64,000 nt of DNA, from assembly GCF_011682175.1 (NCBI RefSeq), contig NZ_WHJG01000017.1, positions 1 to 64,000 on the forward strand, given 5' to 3'. Shown one piece after another: positions 1 to 42,106 of this stretch. Below the pieces are notes generated by a model. That model was not told the DNA's origin, ran no database searches, and saw only the letters and a program-made list of their open reading frames with translations. Positions within the stretch are counted from its first letter, which is position 1, and the number at the start of each line of letters is the position of its first letter. This DNA comes from Massilia frigida. Lineage in GTDB: Bacteria; Pseudomonadota; Gammaproteobacteria; Burkholderiales; Burkholderiaceae_D. A program made the position numbers and the translations under genes.

Positions 1-1
1 C

Positions 2-100
2 ATGCGCAGCTTGCCGCTGGCGACGACGGTGGACGAGGTGGAGGCGCTGTTGCCGTGGAATTTGCATAGCCATGATTTAGCCAGCGAAACGGTTCCCTGA
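2..100 (+). pseudogene. C-terminal end of an IS66-like transposase (partial at window edge)
   Basis: An open frame enters from the left edge and stops with TGA at 98-100. The visible residues include the segment VDEVEALLPWNL. This resembles the C-terminal tail of IS66-family TnpC transposases, which usually ends in a motif like IDELLPWN. Only about 32 residues can be seen, so family membership is an inference from this short motif, and the rest of the element lies outside the window. The stop is followed at once, in the same frame, by hydrolase-like sequence. That suggests an insertion-sequence remnant abutting a disrupted gene. No terminal inverted repeat could be identified. Confidence 0.5.
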
Positions 101-595
101 ACAGCCTGGGGTTCATGGGGCACTTACGAACAGCCGGGTGAACGGATTGGCGTGATCGGCACCTCGCTCGGCGCCGCAGCGCTGGTGTTGTCGAAACCCG
201 GACGCGGGATCGATGCGCTGGTGATCGAGGCGATGTATCCGACGATTGAAGAAGCGATCGACAATCGCCTGCGCCTGTATCTGGGGAGCGCGGGTGCGGC
301 GCTCGCACCGCTGTTGCTATGGCAGGTGCCGCTGCGGCTGGACCTGACTCTGGACCAACTGCGGCCGATCGATGCGGTGGGAGCGCTGGCCTGCCCTACC
401 CTGATTGTGGGTGGCGAGAAGGATCAGCATACCAACGAGGCCGAAACGCGCCGCATTTACGCTGCCGTGCCAGAACCAAAACAGCTGTGGATCGTGGCTG
501 GGGCTGCACATACCGACTTTTATGGCGTCGCAAGGAGCGAGTACGAATCGCGCATCGGCCAGTTCATGGCTCTTCACCTCCGCGGCATCAAATAG
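101..595 (+). pseudogene. 5'-truncated alpha/beta hydrolase
   Basis: The reading frame encodes the C-terminal two thirds of an alpha/beta hydrolase. The nucleophile elbow GTSLGAA (pattern G-x-S-x-G) lies just after GERIGVI. The expected acid appears in a VGGEKDQHT loop, and the catalytic His in AGAAHTDF. Hydrolase-like residues can be read upstream of the first GTG (152) back to about position 119, but the N-terminal strands and oxyanion-hole region are missing. The frame is interrupted by the TGA at 98-100 that ends the transposase-like fragment. The gene therefore looks truncated by a mobile element rather than starting at 152. The substrate cannot be inferred. Confidence 0.6.
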
Positions 596-596
596 C

Positions 597-1469
597 TCAG
601 CCACGCTGTACCAGCGCTGGTAATGCTACTTCATTGGTACGAAAACACATTTTCCAGTACCAAACCAAGGCCATCATACAGAACGGCAATAGCGCTAGTT
701 CAGGCAGCCAGTAGCCGATTGAATCAATCTGCGATTTTTCTGCGACCAAAGAGATTCCGTATCCTCGCCCTATAAAAAAGATGATCGCATTGTAGGCGCC
801 ATGAACGAACATAGGAGCATACAACGAAGCAAACCTTACAGCTAAAATTGCATAGATAATTCCGTGCACAAAACTACTCAAGAAACTTTGATCAATATGA
901 AAAACTCCGAACACAAATGACGAGGCGAGGATGCCGTAGCTTAATTGATATTTTTCGCGCAAACGTCGCAATATGAAGCCGCGAAAAATAATTTCCTCAA
1001 TAATAGGGCCGATGAGCACAGTTGTCATTGCTTCTAGAACTAGCCAACTGCGCAGCCATTTCGTCTCTTCAAACGCCGAAGCCGAAACAAGGTTCCAATG
1101 CCGGTAAGCCCATTCGACATTAATCTGCGCGCTAAAAAGAACAAGCAATGCCCAGCATGCGATCCCAGACAATACGGTTACCATGATTACGATCACCAGC
1201 TCAATACGGGCCGAACGTGTTATTTTATTCCCCATCATTTTCGCGAAAGTAAGATTTTCTCTATGTAGAAAATTTTTACTTAAAATAATCATTGTGATCG
1301 CAATGCCAATCCACTGCAAGTATATAAAATTAGTTATCCCACTTCCAACGTAAGTACAAGCCTCGTGCCATGCAACAGTCACAACCATCCACACGATAAG
1401 AATTTCGTAGACCCTAACAGGGGCCGAGCGCGACAGCGTGGGCACAACTGAATTTTCTGTTTTCAGCAT
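597..1469 (-). CDS. CPBP-family intramembrane metalloprotease, candidate bacteriocin self-immunity protein
   Basis: The product is a polytopic membrane protein of 290 residues with the CPBP (Abi, Rce1-like) signature: EEIIFRGF around residues 158-165 (EExxxR), FGVFHID around 188 with a conserved His, and FVHGAYN around 222-227 with a second His and an Asn. These are the metal and catalytic residues of the family. The ATG at 1469 is chosen over an upstream TTG (1511) because a GGGGGAG purine tract precedes it. The gene is the last of a minus-strand run behind a double-glycine peptide and its ABC exporter. In Gram-positive bacteriocin loci (plantaricin PlnI/PlnLR and sakacin 23K types), CPBP proteins give self-immunity. 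That role here is an inference; leader or signal processing is the alternative. The gene is clearly richer in A+T than its flanks. Confidence 0.8.
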   Translation of the reverse strand: MLKTENSVVPTLSRSAPVRVYEILIVWMVVTVAWHEACTYVGSGITNFIYLQWIGIAITMIILSKNFLHRENLTFAKMMGNKITRSARIELVIVIMVTVLSGIACWALLVLFSAQINVEWAYRHWNLVSASAFEETKWLRSWLVLEAMTTVLIGPIIEEIIFRGFILRRLREKYQLSYGILASSFVFGVFHIDQSFLSSFVHGIIYAILAVRFASLYAPMFVHGAYNAIIFFIGRGYGISLVAEKSQIDSIGYWLPELALLPFCMMALVWYWKMCFRTNEVALPALVQRG

Positions 1470-1502
1470 TACTCCCCCATGGCAAATTCCAAAAATTTTT
1501 AA

Positions 1503-1539
1503 GGGTGGCAAAGCGCCGCGCCGCTCAGCTCTACCACCC
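1503..1539 (-). terminator. Hairpin between bacteriocin peptide and CPBP gene (possible attenuator)
   Basis: On the minus strand GGGTGG (1539-1534) pairs with CCACCC (1508-1503), and a self-complementary GC-rich block lies inside. An A/T-rich stretch with a run of five T follows. It sits between the peptide stop and the start of the protease gene, so partial termination would give more peptide transcript than immunity transcript. The structure is seen; the function is inferred. Confidence 0.4.
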
Positions 1540-1574
1540 GGTTTTTAATCGCCGATATACCTATCCTCTATTTT

Positions 1575-1769
1575 TTACTCGTGAGTCATGTCATAGAGCC
1601 AACGGCCCAACCTTCCGCCCCAACTCTGTAGCTGATTAAACCCTGAGGAAATTGCATTACCGAAGTCCGCCGGGCTACCAGTACAGCCAACCTCTTTTGT
1701 GGAGACCGAGCAAGAGAGTTCACCACCACTGATTGCATTGAGAATAGCAACATTGTCGATTACTTGCAT
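1575..1769 (-). CDS. Double-glycine leader peptide, putative bacteriocin/microcin precursor
   Basis: This gene encodes 64 residues. The leader MQVIDNVAILNAISGG ends in Gly-Gly and has hydrophobic residues at spaced positions, as in substrates of C39-peptidase ABC exporters. The predicted mature peptide has 48 residues, starts ELSC, and carries two Cys nine residues apart that could form a disulfide. It has a Gly-rich middle (GNAISSGFN) and a Trp/Arg-containing amphipathic end (SWGGRLGRWLYD). The ATG at 1769 is preceded by a perfect GAGGAG at 1775-1780 with a 5-base gap. An in-frame GTG at 1775 overlaps that ribosome site and is less likely. It lies directly downstream of the matching exporter genes and upstream of a CPBP protease. 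I recognise no named bacteriocin in it. Confidence 0.75.
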   Translation of the reverse strand: MQVIDNVAILNAISGGELSCSVSTKEVGCTGSPADFGNAISSGFNQLQSWGGRLGRWLYDMTHE

Positions 1770-1821
1770 AACCACTCCTCGTTAAATTATCAACCGCGCC
1801 GGATGCGAGATTGATTCCCTA

Positions 1822-1850
1822 CTATTGAAAAAGGCTAGAAAAATCGTCAA
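1822..1850 (-). promoter_or_regulatory. Weak candidate promoter for the bacteriocin peptide gene
   Basis: In the AT-rich gap between the exporter stop (2000) and the peptide start (1769), TTGACG (1850-1845) is separated by 17 bases from CAATAG (1827-1822). The -35 box is good and the -10 box is poor. A separate promoter here would allow peptide expression independent of the exporter genes. The only other support is the 230-base non-coding gap. Confidence 0.25.
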
Positions 1851-1999
1851 TAATTTGATTTTATAAATTCTACTTAAAAATTCGATATGTTAAAGTTGAC
1901 TCGCTAGGGCAAGGATTCATCAATCGATTCGCGTATTTATATTTTCCCATGTTTTCGCAAGTCGTCATTGTCACAAAACAATCAAGTCCCAGCCATGTT

Positions 2000-4102
2000 T
2001 CAGCAAGCCTGAGGGGTTGAGCTATGGTTACTCAACTCAACCGCTTTCCCGCCACTCAAACCAACCACACGATCCGCAGAGTTAATCGTCTCAGGCCGAT
2101 GGGCCACCATGATGCGCGTCAGTTCCATGGCACTCAACACCGCGTTCACCAGCTGTTCATTTTGAATATCCAGATGGCTGGTCGCTTCATCCAGCGCCAG
2201 CACTTTGGGCGACTTATACAGCGCCCGGGCCAAAAGAATCCGTTGTTTCTGCCCGCCCGACAAACTGCTGCCCATGTCCCCCACCAAGGTCTGATACCCC
2301 ATCGGCATTGACACAATCTCGTCATGCACAGCCGCCAGCCGTGCGCACCGCTGCACGTCGGCATATTCACATTTGCTGTCGAAAAAACTGATGTTGTCGA
2401 TGATGGAACCCGCCAGGAGCACATCATCCTGCATCACTGTCCCGACCAGCTGTCGATATGCCGGCAGGCCAAGCTGCTGAATCGGTATTCCATCGATCAT
2501 CACCTCCCCTTCTGTCGGCGCGAGCAAGCCGAGAAGGATCTTGCACATCGTGGTCTTGCCGCATCCGCTAGGACCGACCAACGCAACGCTCTGCCCCGCC
2601 GGTATGTGCAGATTCACGCCATCCAGAATCCATGGCTCGCCGTCCGCATAGCGAAACTTCACATCGCGCAGGGTGATGCTGGGAGAAATCCGGCTCAAAT
2701 CGCTCTCCCACATGGTCGTCGGTTCCGCCGGCTCAAGAACGATATCGGACAGCCGCTCTGCATGCAGTCCCAGCATCTTCAGGCTGATCAGCATATCCAC
2801 CAGACTGATCATGCGGCCGGCGAACGTCCCCGCGTAACTGATGAATGCCATCAGCATCCCCACCGTCAGCGCGTTTCGCAGCACCAGCCCCGCCCCAACG
2901 TAGAAAACGACCAGACCTTGCAAGCCGATGATCGTGCTGTTCGCCGCCTTGAGCAAAATGGTGAGTTTTTCGGTCCTGGCATCGCGGTTCACGACATCCT
3001 GCTTCAGGTTTTGCCAGCGTGCCTTGCGCTCGGCCTCTCGTCCAAATAACTTGAGGGGAACGATGGCGCGCACGGTTTCCACAAAATGCGTATTTTCCTT
3101 CGCTGCGAGTATCAACCGTTCCTGCGATGCGGCTCTGAGCGGCTGGTAGAAAATCCATCTCAACGCGGCATACAGCGCGACGCTGAGGACCACGATCAGC
3201 GTGAGCTCCGCGCTGTACATCAACATCATCCCCAAGGCCAGCAATGCCATCAATCCATCCAGCACGCTCTCCACGAACACGCTGGTCAAGGTCTGCTGGA
3301 TCGCGGTAATACTGCCGAAACGGGACAGCACGTCGCCCAGGTGACGTTTCTCAAAAAATACCGTCGGCAGGTTGATCAGATGCGAGAACACGCGGGCCGA
3401 CCATTGCAGCCCGACGTCGATACTCCATCTCATCAACACCATGCTGCGCGCGATACCGATCAGCGTCTGCGTCACCAGCAGCAGAGCAAAGCCGACCACC
3501 AATATCTGCAGCAACTGGTGATCGCCGCTGACGATCACCTCGTCGATCACGTACTGGTTAAACAGTGGCGATACAAGCGCAAACACTTCAAGCGCCAGTG
3601 CCAGCGCAAACACTTGCAACAAGGCCCGGCGCAATCCCACCACCGGTCCGGTCAGCTGCTTGATCGACATTCTCCGGGTGGCGTCTTTTTTCTCGAATTG
3701 CGCCGTCGGCAGGAGTTCCAGTGCGACCCCGGTAAAATGGTCCGACACCTCGGCCATCGTCAGGTGACGTTCACCGACGGCCGGATCGAAAATAACGACA
3801 GTCGTGGTGCCGCGCAAGCTGCGCTTGATCGTCTTGAGGACGACGAAGTGATTCAGATTCCAATGCAGTATGCAGGGACACTTCAAGGCACCCAATTCTT
3901 CCAGCGCCAGTCTTAACGGCCGCGAGGCGAGATGCATCGAACCGGCATGGCGCATTAATTGCGCCAAATTCGCGCCCTTGAGACTGATCGAAAAACGCCG
4001 CCGTAAATCCGCCAGATCCATATGGCTGCCGAAATGGCTGGCCACCATGGCCAGGCAAGCCAGGCCGCATTCGCTCGATTCGGTCTGTAGAATGGGTTTC
4101 AT
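2000..4102 (-). CDS. Peptidase-containing ABC transporter (C39 peptidase, bacteriocin exporter)
   Basis: This 700-residue protein has the classic three-part layout. The N-terminal C39 peptidase (1 to about 140) has QTESSECGLAC with Gln6 and catalytic Cys12, His85 in NHFVVLK and Asp106 in FDPAVG, so the protease triad is intact rather than degenerate. A six-helix transmembrane domain (about 160-450) follows. The ATPase domain has Walker A GPSGCGKTT near 510, signature LSGGQKQR near 611 and Walker B VLALDEATS near 633. Such proteins (CvaB, LagD type) cut the double-glycine leader and export the mature peptide. GGGAGG precedes the ATG, 21 bases after the HlyD-like gene stop. With that adaptor and an outer-membrane TolC (not in the window) it would form a type I secretion channel. 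Its likely substrate is encoded just downstream. Confidence 0.92.
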   Translation of the reverse strand: MKPILQTESSECGLACLAMVASHFGSHMDLADLRRRFSISLKGANLAQLMRHAGSMHLASRPLRLALEELGALKCPCILHWNLNHFVVLKTIKRSLRGTTTVVIFDPAVGERHLTMAEVSDHFTGVALELLPTAQFEKKDATRRMSIKQLTGPVVGLRRALLQVFALALALEVFALVSPLFNQYVIDEVIVSGDHQLLQILVVGFALLLVTQTLIGIARSMVLMRWSIDVGLQWSARVFSHLINLPTVFFEKRHLGDVLSRFGSITAIQQTLTSVFVESVLDGLMALLALGMMLMYSAELTLIVVLSVALYAALRWIFYQPLRAASQERLILAAKENTHFVETVRAIVPLKLFGREAERKARWQNLKQDVVNRDARTEKLTILLKAANSTIIGLQGLVVFYVGAGLVLRNALTVGMLMAFISYAGTFAGRMISLVDMLISLKMLGLHAERLSDIVLEPAEPTTMWESDLSRISPSITLRDVKFRYADGEPWILDGVNLHIPAGQSVALVGPSGCGKTTMCKILLGLLAPTEGEVMIDGIPIQQLGLPAYRQLVGTVMQDDVLLAGSIIDNISFFDSKCEYADVQRCARLAAVHDEIVSMPMGYQTLVGDMGSSLSGGQKQRILLARALYKSPKVLALDEATSHLDIQNEQLVNAVLSAMELTRIMVAHRPETINSADRVVGLSGGKAVELSNHSSTPQAC

Positions 4103-4123
4103 CGCCGCCTCCCTCAGATTGAC

Positions 4124-5524
4124 TTAACGCTGCGCCGCCGCCAGCAACGGCGCGGCGATCCATTCCCAAATGCGCCGCTCGTCTTGCACGATGTCGGCTT
4201 CCAAGGTCATCCCGGCGCGCAGCGGCTGCGCCACGCCATACACATCGATGCTCTGGCGCGATAACTGGACCCTGATCCGGAACAAGGCTTCGCTGCTGTT
4301 GGCTCCGGGCGTGCTTAGTTGGGCATTGCTCAGGATCGTACTGGCCAGATGAGGGGGCAATTCATTGGGCGCGAACGGCGCCTTGCTGATATCGACAATG
4401 CGCCCGCGATGCAGCCCGAATTTCTGATAGGGATAGGCCTGATAACGTATCAAGACCGTCTGCCCGTCAGCGACAAACCCCATCATCCGGCTTGGCGCAT
4501 ACAGTTGAACCTCCAACGGCTCCATGGATTGCTTGCCGTTCGCCCCGGGAATCAATACCGCCAGCGACTGAGCTGCAACGACCGCTTGTCCGGACCGGTA
4601 GGTGATGGTCGCCACGATGCCGGCCTGTGGCGCGAGTATCAGACTGGTTTTCCGACTTTGATTTTCGGCGATGTCCTTGTCGATGCCGGCCTCCGAACGC
4701 TGTAATTGCGCGATCATGTTAGCCAGCTCGCCGGCGCTGGCGTTGCGTTCGGCCGTCAGGTTCAGCCAGCTGGCTTGTAGCTGCAGTTTTGCTCTCGCAA
4801 GCGTACTCACCCGTGCGCCAAGATCGATCAATTCTTCTTGCTTTTGCTGCGTCTGCGCGGCGGAGACGAAGCCATTTCCTTGCAGTGTTTCATACTTGGC
4901 GAGGCTAGCCCTGGCCAGTTCGATCCGTCGCTGCGCCAACGCGATTTCCTGATCCAACTCCAGCGTTTCCGCATTGACGTTCAACAAACGTTCATCGATG
5001 GCGCTCGTCTTGTCGCGATGCTGTGCCAGCCGGGTGCGGCGCTCCGACGCCAGCGTGTTTTTCTGGATCGTTAACTGTTGGGCCACCAGCATGGAAATCT
5101 CCCCGCTGCCGCCCTGGCGTTCCGTGGACACCTCGAACAGCGGCTGCCCGGCGACGACAGCCTGCCCTTCGGTCACGAAACTGCGCGAAAGAATTCCCGA
5201 GTTCATGGCAGAGATCGTCAAGCTTCCGCCTGCAGGCAAGGTCATCCCTGTCACCCGGGCTTTGCTGGTCACGCTGCCGAAGAAAATGTAGGCAAGAACG
5301 CACAGCGCCATCGCCAGGGCAACGCATGCAACGATCCGGACCGACATGGGCTGGGCGAGCCGGATCGCACCCATCCATTGATTGGCGTGCGCTTGCGCCA
5401 CCTCCTTGCGGAAGAAGGTGTCGTTAACAGCGGCTTGATGTTCGGGTGGAGCGGCCTGCGGCGTATCCGGCGCGGCGCTGGTGAGCGTGTTCTGACAAAT
5501 GTTCGACATTGGGCAAGGTCTCAT
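4124..5524 (-). CDS. HlyD-family periplasmic adaptor of a bacteriocin type I secretion system
   Basis: This membrane-fusion protein of about 466 residues has one N-terminal transmembrane segment (about 64-84). A biotinyl-lipoyl-like half motif (SGILSRSFVTEGQAVVAGQ) follows, then a long Gln/Ala/Glu-rich coiled-coil hairpin (about 140-290) and a second lipoyl half (APQAGIVATI). This matches CvaA/HlyD adaptors that bridge the inner-membrane ABC exporter and TolC. Two in-frame ATGs (5524 and 5509) are possible, and neither has a strong ribosome site. It heads the cassette and is followed after 21 bases by the peptidase-ABC gene. No TolC-like gene lies next to it, so a housekeeping TolC is presumably used. 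Confidence 0.88.
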   Translation of the reverse strand: MRPCPMSNICQNTLTSAAPDTPQAAPPEHQAAVNDTFFRKEVAQAHANQWMGAIRLAQPMSVRIVACVALAMALCVLAYIFFGSVTSKARVTGMTLPAGGSLTISAMNSGILSRSFVTEGQAVVAGQPLFEVSTERQGGSGEISMLVAQQLTIQKNTLASERRTRLAQHRDKTSAIDERLLNVNAETLELDQEIALAQRRIELARASLAKYETLQGNGFVSAAQTQQKQEELIDLGARVSTLARAKLQLQASWLNLTAERNASAGELANMIAQLQRSEAGIDKDIAENQSRKTSLILAPQAGIVATITYRSGQAVVAAQSLAVLIPGANGKQSMEPLEVQLYAPSRMMGFVADGQTVLIRYQAYPYQKFGLHRGRIVDISKAPFAPNELPPHLASTILSNAQLSTPGANSSEALFRIRVQLSRQSIDVYGVAQPLRAGMTLEADIVQDERRIWEWIAAPLLAAAQR

Positions 5525-5707
5525 TTCACGGTAAGCAGCGCGCGTCGCCTTCCAGCGGCGCGGTTTGCGTGAAGAAACAGAGTCTCAAAGCCTATCGAAC
5601 ATGAAGTCTTAGCTAATGACTTAACGTAAGTTTTTCCGACAATCTATTTAATGCATGTCAGCTTGCGGTAGAACAATACTGTGATTGTAAGATCAAACGG
5701 TCAGCGT

Positions 5708-5727
5708 GCTGCCCTGCGGAGGGCAGC
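5708..5727 (-). terminator. Stem-loop downstream of the MipA/OmpV gene
   Basis: An 8-bp perfect stem (GCTGCCCT/AGGGCAGC) with a 4-base loop lies 15 bases past the stop of the MipA/OmpV gene. No T tract follows on the minus strand, so it is a weak or factor-dependent terminator candidate. It may also insulate the bacteriocin cassette, whose own upstream region (5525-5707) is AT-rich and gene-free. Confidence 0.35.
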
Positions 5728-5741
5728 GCTTGCAATACCGC

Positions 5742-6584
5742 TCAGTCGCCGGCCAAGCGGGTCGAACGGCCCAGGGTCCAGGCGAACGCCACGCCGGCCG
5801 ACGCACCGGACTTCTTCTTCATCAGCGGACTGTCTTCGTTGGCGGCACCCGCATAACTCTCAAACCGCACGAAACCCAACACGCGCATATCGTCATTGAG
5901 CATGCGCGACGCGCTCGCGCCCACCCGTGCCAGGATCAGCCCCGCGTCGGCCTGATAAGCGGGCCGGGTCGATGTGGCGTAGCGCGGCTGAACTTCGTAG
6001 AAATAACGGTTCACCTTCTTGTCGCCGATGGCCACGCCGGCATTGGCATCGAAGGTCCACAAGCCGTCGGCGCTGCGCATTTCGTACACCACTTTCGGCT
6101 CGAACGTGAAGCCCTGCGTGCGCATGCCGGCGCGCGCTTCGATCACGGCACGCAGCGGGATGTCGAGGCGGATGCGGCTCGATGCGCTAGGTTCGGCGAC
6201 GCGCACCTTCAGGCGCGGCCCGAATTCGAGCAAGAGGCCCAGGTTGGGCATGCCGGCGCGCGCGGCCACGTCGTCGGAGCGCGCCGGCAGCGATGCCGCC
6301 AGGCCCACATCGAGTTCGACCGCCTCGCGCTTGAGCAGGCGCGCGCCGATGCCGTTTTGGTCAGCGCGCAACACCAGGCCGCGGTAGATCAGGAACGGCA
6401 ACACCAGGCCGCGCGATGAGCGGTCGGCCGAGCCGGGATACGCAGGCGCGGAGGCGACGCCGCCAAGGACGCCGGCTTCCCACAGCGGGAGCGGTTTGTT
6501 TTCGGGTGGCGCGGCGAAAGCGGCGATGGGGAGGGCCAGAAGGATGGCGGCAATTGCTACGGCTGGTTTCATGCGGATGCTCAC
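5742..6584 (-). CDS. MipA/OmpV family outer-membrane protein
   Basis: The product has 280 residues. Its N-terminal signal peptide (hydrophobic run PAVAIAAILLALPIAAFA) ends in an Ala-x-Ala type site. The rest is rich in alternating hydrophobic/polar strands, with the family-typical opening LWEAGVLGGVASAPAYPGS and PFLIYRG. MipA/OmpV proteins are beta-barrel outer-membrane proteins. Some act as scaffolds for murein-synthesis enzymes, and others are of unknown transport role. An internal ATG four codons later is an equally plausible start. It is the most downstream gene of the minus-strand island but is separated from the nuclease gene by about 100 bases that include a repeat, so it is probably transcribed alone. 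Confidence 0.75.
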   Translation of the reverse strand: MSIRMKPAVAIAAILLALPIAAFAAPPENKPLPLWEAGVLGGVASAPAYPGSADRSSRGLVLPFLIYRGLVLRADQNGIGARLLKREAVELDVGLAASLPARSDDVAARAGMPNLGLLLEFGPRLKVRVAEPSASSRIRLDIPLRAVIEARAGMRTQGFTFEPKVVYEMRSADGLWTFDANAGVAIGDKKVNRYFYEVQPRYATSTRPAYQADAGLILARVGASASRMLNDDMRVLGFVRFESYAGAANEDSPLMKKKSGASAGVAFAWTLGRSTRLAGD

Positions 6585-41858: not shown

Positions 41859-42106
41859 GGCGCCACGGCAGCCAACTTGCGGCCCGAGCTGGACCATACC
41901 TGCATGCATGCCGACCCGGTCCAGCTGGTTGCATCCGGACAGCTGCACTGGTTTCCTTCCAAGGTACTATTGGCCGGGCACTGCAGGCCGCTGCGTTGGG
42001 CGTGCGCACCGGCGCCGCTCTGTGAAGATGGCGACGGGACCACGCCCCCCACCACCGCGAGCAGCAGGCATGCCGAGACAGCAACAGCGGCAAAAATGGC
42101 TTTCAT
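41840..42106 (-). CDS. Small secreted protein with four cysteines
   Basis: This 88-residue protein starts with a clear signal peptide (KAIFAAVAVSACLLLAVVGG). After cleavage it has a short region with Cys in LQCPANSTLEGNQCSCPD and GSACMQVW, a pattern of paired cysteines likely to form disulfides. AGGAGGT lies five bases before the ATG and strongly supports translation. I do not recognise a family. Its 3' end is embedded in a 34-base palindrome. Confidence 0.65.
   Translation of the reverse strand: MKAIFAAVAVSACLLLAVVGGVVPSPSSQSGAGAHAQRSGLQCPANSTLEGNQCSCPDATSWTGSACMQVWSSSGRKLAAVAPPQPAR

Follow-up and report, generated by a model that had tools for sequence, protein, structure and literature searches.

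Do four adjoining genes near the start of a Massilia contig produce, export and confer immunity to a small bacteriocin? The stretch of DNA analysed (the window) comprises 64,000 nucleotides (nt) of Massilia frigida (GCF_011682175.1, NZ_WHJG01000017.1, positions 1-64,000), and the genes lie together on its minus strand at 597-5524. In order of transcription, they encode an HlyD-family periplasmic adaptor (membrane fusion protein; 4124-5524, 466 amino acids (aa)), a C39-peptidase ABC exporter of the PCAT type (2000-4102, 700 aa), a double-glycine (Gly-Gly) peptide precursor (1575-1769, 64 aa) and a CPBP/Rce1-like intramembrane protease family protein (597-1469, 290 aa), which is the candidate immunity protein. 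An initial interpretation made from the letters of the DNA (the sequence-only reading) had proposed a production, export and immunity cassette in a betaproteobacterium. All four open reading frames (ORFs) were confirmed at their places, with one correction: for CPBP, ATG 1469, preceded by GGGGAG, is a better start codon than the listed TTG 1511. The proposal itself was supported by synteny, by constraint on the peptide and by the exchange of cargo and partner, and from these the function is inferred. Judged from the sequence comparisons, this is probably a class II microcin-type bacteriocin locus with cargo-specific immunity; the gene set is read in this way because the exporter is fixed while the cargo and its partner are exchanged together. 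Genomes of relatives are given G numbers and fetched loci L numbers.

Exchange of peptide and partner at the exporter site

A comparison of orthologous loci, which the sequence-only reading had suggested, recovered all four genes in the same order in G002 and G016, where the arrangement is MipA, HlyD, ABC, peptide, CPBP and alpha/beta hydrolase. Where present at the same site, the exporter is 93-95% identical in G002, G016, G009 (M. rubra) and, in two pieces, G007 (M. mucilaginosa); the HlyD adaptor and the exporter of the last each match in two frames, possibly owing to sequencing errors. Among four genomes, the ratio of nonsynonymous to synonymous divergence (dN/dS) of the exporter was 0.05-0.07. 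The synonymous divergence (dS) among the window, G002, G016 and G009 was 0.46-0.74 for the exporter and 0.34-0.77 for HlyD; with G003 included, it was 0.09-0.50 for MipA, 0.22-0.40 for the S1/P1 nuclease gene and 0.17-0.36 for the PLD-like gene. For the peptide, dS was at least 0.99 or not computable in all ten pairs, and for CPBP it was at least 1.51 or not computable in all six. The DNA identity to G016 and G002, in bins of 100 bases, was 0.83-0.95 from bin 2601 to 2101, dipped to 0.27-0.68 from 2001 to 1201, and recovered to 0.76-0.91 in bins 801 to 201 (G016) and to 0.76-0.92 in bins 501 to 201 (G002). The peptide and its partner appear to have been exchanged together behind a fixed exporter.

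The exchanged segment has conserved borders. On the exporter side this is the gene of a MipA-like outer membrane protein (5742-6584, minus strand; PF06629, 4e-40), which is collinear in G002, G016 and G009 and adjoins the peptide and CPBP genes in G003. On the other side it is the 3' part of an alpha/beta hydrolase gene (127-595, plus strand), with a DNA identity of 84% to G003, 87% to G002 and 83% to G009; identity to G016 was 80%, over a longer stretch that reaches into the CPBP gene.

In M. rubra (L033, L115) the partner was seen to follow the cargo instead of the exporter. Here the same exporter (93% identical), at the same site, is followed by another Gly-Gly peptide and then by a 161-aa gene, and there is no CPBP gene in the slot. 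The alternative cargo is an 83-codon ORF that, when read from an internal Met, encodes a Gly-Gly peptide of 74 aa whose core is rich in glycine; its matches to PF10439 (Bacteriocin_IIc, 1.5e-4) and PF17508 (MccV, 0.0058) were weak and both under the cut-off. The 161-aa protein has no Pfam match. With matches at E 5.8e-9 or better, four of the 17 genus genomes have a peptide of the M. rubra type (G009, G004, G010 and G015), although a stop is reported inside the aligned frame of the G010 copy; weaker matches at E 0.0025 and 0.0073, both in long frames, were discarded. In all four genomes the 161-aa gene lies within about 150 bases behind the peptide. A partner that changes with the cargo behind a constant exporter is as expected of immunity.

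The sequence-only reading had taken the AT-rich peptide part as a sign of horizontal transfer and had placed an insertion sequence (IS) remnant beside it. The GC content was 0.42-0.49 between 601 and 2000, rose to 0.56-0.63 across the genes of the exporter and the adaptor, and was 0.62-0.71 between 5801 and 10800. Exchange is backed by the dS values and the dip in DNA identity, but it was not carried by the IS. An IS66-type element does have its edge at the contig start (1-126, plus strand; PF13817, E 0.012, below the cut-off), with a C-terminal tail at 2-100, but it lies outside the cassette, about 1.4 kb from the peptide gene at the contig's first bases. The tail cuts the hydrolase gene near base 126, where the alignment to G016 breaks. 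IS66 was rejected as a carrier: G002, G016, G009 and G003 have the site with no IS in it, and their hydrolase gene is uninterrupted, at 287-307 aa.

The peptide, the exporter and the CPBP protein

The peptide gene starts at ATG 1769 with GAGGAG upstream. A leader motif with a ribosome site is weak evidence alone, because shuffled sequence gives it too (two in 64 kb compared with four in ten Markov-shuffled windows); the second instance, at 42106, looks like a Sec signal. What does count as evidence is that four congeners also have the gene. Among 392 Oxalobacteraceae genomes, five carry the gene (the window, G002, G003, G007 and G016), all of the window's genus, so the gene is conserved, a point on which the initial proposal had been made to depend. 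The homologs are 45-56% identical and share an invariant Cys-x8-Cys; 15 positions are invariant in the five peptides, including C20, C29, S23, T24, G51, L54, G55, W57, Y59 and D60. In nine of the ten pairs the peptide dN/dS was 0.12-0.46, and the tenth had no computable dS. These ratios show constraint at the protein level, although they are rough, since dS is near saturation. Positive selection is unsupported for the same reason, dN/dS being below 0.5 wherever it could be computed. The double-glycine peptide noted beside the exporter was in this way established as a gene.

The leader, MQVIDNVAILNAISGG, is that of a small double-glycine precursor, with M1, Q2, I4, L10 and G15 invariant in all five peptides. 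Cleavage is predicted after residue 16, giving a mature part (ELSCSVSTKEVGC...) of 48 aa with a mass of 5180.6 Da (reduced), a pI of 5.05 and the Cys-x8-Cys. It contains no YGNGV, the motif of the pediocin-like class IIa peptides as described in PMC8538875.

In the search for distant relatives, 221 of the 392 family genomes matched at E 1 or better, of which five were kept (E 5.4e-12 or better) and 216 dropped; the best dropped match (E 7.9e-4) lies inside a 795-codon frame. Nine places with weak matches were inspected and the matches were judged to be chance: no listed ORF there has a Gly-Gly leader, one stretch has an ABC match (27%, partial), and seven show much the same frame across genomes, apparently the shadow frame of one conserved gene. 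A profile of the family found the window alone among the best 15-16 candidates per genome in 399 order-level and 369 class-level genomes, which is weak evidence of absence, as these samples evidently lack the other four carriers. No plasmid match was obtained at E 1. From these comparisons the peptide family looks new, being in no library searched.

The C39 catalytic residues C12, H85 and D106 of the exporter were read directly from the sequence, which bore out the intact protease triad claimed earlier, and the domain matched PF03412 at 3.5e-31, alongside ABC_membrane and ABC_tran. Residues 6-694 match a solved bacteriocin exporter (4ry2, 1.5e-95). The only full-length match in its own genome is the exporter itself, the next covering residues 101-669 at 28% identity. 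PADLOC matched the ATPase part of the exporter alone, and the exporter was not counted as a defence system. The adaptor matches PF13437 (8e-11) and, under the cut-off, TIGR01843 (4.6e-35). TolC-type channel stretches (PF02321) number 28 elsewhere in the genome, and none is on the window's contig.

Relatives of the exporter were surveyed in 80 loci retained out of 190 from a scan of public genomes, and 59 of the 80 have at least 3 kb on both sides. In 49 of the 80, an ORF with a strict Gly-Gly leader is found no more than 5 kb from the exporter, compared with 2 of 80 when the ORFs were reversed; the exporter is not always adjacent to an unrelated large substrate, the arrangement which the sequence-only reading had named as counting against it. 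A regular expression flagged CPBP genes at seven of these loci (L042, L044, L073, L076, L081, L084 and L093) and missed L041, which came from tblastn. By profile, CPBP lies within 5 kb at two loci, L041 and L042; both were in the training set, and Pfam confirms both. L041 is from Undibacterium hunanense, with CPBP directly behind the exporter on the same strand, and L042 from Massilia eburnea, with CPBP on the opposite strand.

The CPBP protein matches PF02517 over the cut-off (2.8e-20) and has the motifs EEIIFR, FGVFH and HGAYN; with its EExxxR and His motifs it belongs to the family and is a predicted protease. Residues E158, E159, R163, H191 and H223 are invariant in six of six aligned proteins. 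Its own genome has eight PF02517 matches over the cut-off. Close relatives (48-61%) occur in four of the 392 Oxalobacteraceae genomes, the window included, and these are four of the five peptide carriers (the window, G002, G003 and G016), in each of which CPBP adjoins the peptide; in the fifth, G007, the contig ends behind the peptide. No plasmid match was found at 1e-5, and a 224-aa query gave 14 plasmid matches at E 10, none of them enterobacterial.

Between the exporter and the peptide gene lies an AT-rich gap (1776-1999) with one sigma-70-like site on the minus strand at 1850-1821. This site is no evidence by itself, because shuffled sequences give 3.4 +/- 1.7 promoter-like sites compared with six in 1-6000. 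The neighbours up to 14223 are MipA, the S1/P1 nuclease, the PLD-like gene, a 5'-nucleotidase and a beta-barrel protein; on the opposite side are the hydrolase and the contig end. No modification genes of siderophore microcins (class IIb) are among the neighbours up to 14223, the other side being the contig end and the rest of the genome not having been searched.

Other Gly-Gly ORFs were seen near related exporters. A second exporter type, about 70% identical, is accompanied by ORFs with MRALNxxELDYVSGG leaders (L117 4481-4822 in G016; L118 5875-6060 and 6284-6526 in G003), the two in L118 being similar to each other. In Massilia sp. Bi118 (L082 3239-3733), a 51% identical exporter is preceded by a tandem array of three Gly-Gly ORFs that resemble one another, each with cysteines enclosing a short core rich in threonine.

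Proposed function and rival explanations

The peptide is very probably an exported peptide of bacteriocin type, and the gene comparisons suggest that CPBP is likely to be its immunity protein. The leader would mark the 64-residue precursor for the C39 domain of the exporter, which would cut it behind Gly16. The product of 48 residues, in which C20 and C29 probably form a disulfide, would leave the cell by way of ABC and HlyD together with a TolC-type channel whose gene lies elsewhere, and would act on close relatives without matching protection. CPBP, in the inner membrane, would give cargo-specific immunity, most likely by cutting the peptide when the latter arrives at the membrane; judged by analogy with other systems and by the intact motifs, the chances that immunity works by proteolysis are about even. 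The exporter would serve as a fixed platform, with recombination in the conserved flanks swapping the peptide and the immunity gene. A more tentative extension, which we consider possible but doubtful, is that the site is an exchange slot in which weapon-plus-immunity pairs are swapped between species, the variable N-terminal half of a proteolytic CPBP reads the matching peptide, and immunity genes of earlier cargoes, such as the 161-aa gene in G002, are kept behind the slot.

Several observations weigh against this proposal, and the homologs are few (five peptides and four CPBPs). Gly-Gly leaders typically carry an acidic residue at -8 and a hydrophobic one at -12, and the window peptide has neither. 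The profile search advised by the sequence-only reading was run and matched no bacteriocin or leader family: Pfam and NCBIfam gave nothing at E 1 and PHROG nothing at 0.01, and no PDB match was better than E 0.33. By sequence comparison the peptide is also unrelated to McbC of Moraxella catarrhalis. Since such peptides are diverse, a match to a named bacteriocin family is not required. A third cysteine in three of the five homologs leaves the disulfide in doubt, and three of the five have GGS instead of GG at the cleavage site, so the cut site may shift. In G003 (L149 6982-7553), the peptide and CPBP genes lie between MipA and the hydrolase without HlyD or ABC, and no remnant of these was detected. 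The nearest relatives also differ, being G003's for the window peptide and, via a shared 3' part, G016's for the window CPBP; this is because CPBP is a mosaic (its identity between window and G016 is 36% in the first 60 columns of the alignment but 86% in the final 45). The 161-aa gene occurs in nine of the 17 genus genomes, four with its peptide and five without: G002 (L113 10154-10639, directly behind CPBP), G003 (C55), G007 (C393), G014 (C65, at the contig start) and G013 (C1). A lone copy fits left-over immunity but would also allow another role. For G003, peptide export would need an exporter encoded elsewhere; a 70% identical one, at a distance of 131 kb, has Gly-Gly ORFs of its own as neighbours.

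CPBP might instead be a helper protease in maturation or export, alone or in addition to immunity, with the immunity factor being another gene. The motif residues are intact throughout the aligned proteins, and members of the family are processing proteases in other systems, which we counted in favour of this possibility. According to PMC5380434, killing by the cdz bacteriocin of Caulobacter does not require the CaaX protease gene found near the cdz genes, so gene proximity alone proves nothing. Against a helper role, M. rubra has the same exporter without CPBP in the slot, and the profile survey placed CPBP near only two of the 80 other exporters, both from the training set; we consider the helper role unlikely. 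It seems very improbable that the peptide acts not as a killer but as a secreted signal or at the cell surface, with CPBP as its degrader or receptor: C39 exporters such as ComA do export signals, and ComA matched over exporter residues 6-694, but the scan of the neighbours (the MipA side, and the hydrolase and contig end) showed no gene for a sensor or regulator, and the joint exchange of cargo and partner, with partner genes left without cargo, is the pattern of toxin and immunity. Another possibility is that the cassette is silent or in decay in this genome and that immunity is the reason for any retention, as the IS66 copy at its edge, the missing exporter in G003 and the split frames of G007 might indicate. 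This too is improbable, for in the window all four genes are open, the C39 residues are intact and the exporter is under the constraint described above. Cargo-specific immunity remains the reading that we prefer.

Comparison with known systems

The closest precedent in gene content is microcin S of Escherichia coli G3/10 (mcsS-mcsI-mcsA-mcsB), which, going by its published description (PMC3316575), has the same four kinds of genes: a class II precursor, the CAAX/CPBP-family McsI (216 aa, with tested immunity), an HlyD adaptor and an ABC exporter with a peptidase domain. The pairing with McsI immunity is also given in PMC6795089. Microcin S differs in gene order, in its Enterobacteriaceae host and in its location on a megaplasmid, and McsI is described as having no predicted transmembrane helices (PMC3316575). 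The closest precedent in gene order is mcbABCI on M. catarrhalis pLQ510 (NC_011131.1), for which PMC2761928 describes HlyD, C39 ABC, Gly-Gly peptide and immunity gene in the order of the window, and killing and immunity demonstrated by its authors. The exporters are 48% identical over 685 positions and the adaptors 28% over 432 aligned positions. However, McbI is a 74-aa immunity protein that its authors call unlike other proteins (PMC2761928).

Family likeness extends further. In lactic acid bacteria (LAB), the Abi/CPBP membrane proteins PlnI, PlnL and SkkI are encoded with bacteriocins and, according to PMC8538875, are proposed to degrade them; the hosts are Gram-positive and the bacteriocin classes are others. 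A cluster of Bacteroides sp. 2_1_56FAA places a predicted peptide beside a PF02517 gene and a C39-domain ABC transporter (PMC4573289), but in another phylum, with another peptide family and in silico alone. A 'CPBP' protein of Treponema pallidum was rejected as a precedent, as it appears in PMC9200625 without the motifs of the family. Class II microcins are described in Serratia (PMC13101503, the accessible part of which has no CAAX/CPBP matches) and in Pantoea, Erwinia and Xanthomonas (PMC13174018), and for Massilia antibiotica an antiSMASH 'bacteriocin' cluster is mentioned, with no detail in the portion available (PMC7988111).

The sequence-only reading had thought the pairing with CPBP immunity undescribed in this bacterial group, and a limited literature search found no report of it for the group. 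Reportedly, going by the title of Kim et al. 2024, there is a Vibrio cholerae microcin outside the Enterobacteriaceae with proteolytic immunity. Novelty for bacteria at large does not hold, as microcin S (PMC3316575, PMC6795089) and LAB Abi immunity (PMC8538875), as described there, came before.

The locus extends the microcin S type to the Oxalobacteraceae. Five peptides and four CPBP partners tied to one exporter site also form a natural allelic series, so that the specificity between CPBP and peptide is testable by swaps; proteolytic immunity, if that is the mechanism, would permit direct mapping of the cut site and of the region that sets specificity. E. coli and Moraxella provide earlier examples of the design. 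Because microcin S, mcbABCI, the LAB Abi systems and the Bacteroides cluster precede it, the kind of locus is known, and the peptide family and the host group are new as far as searched.

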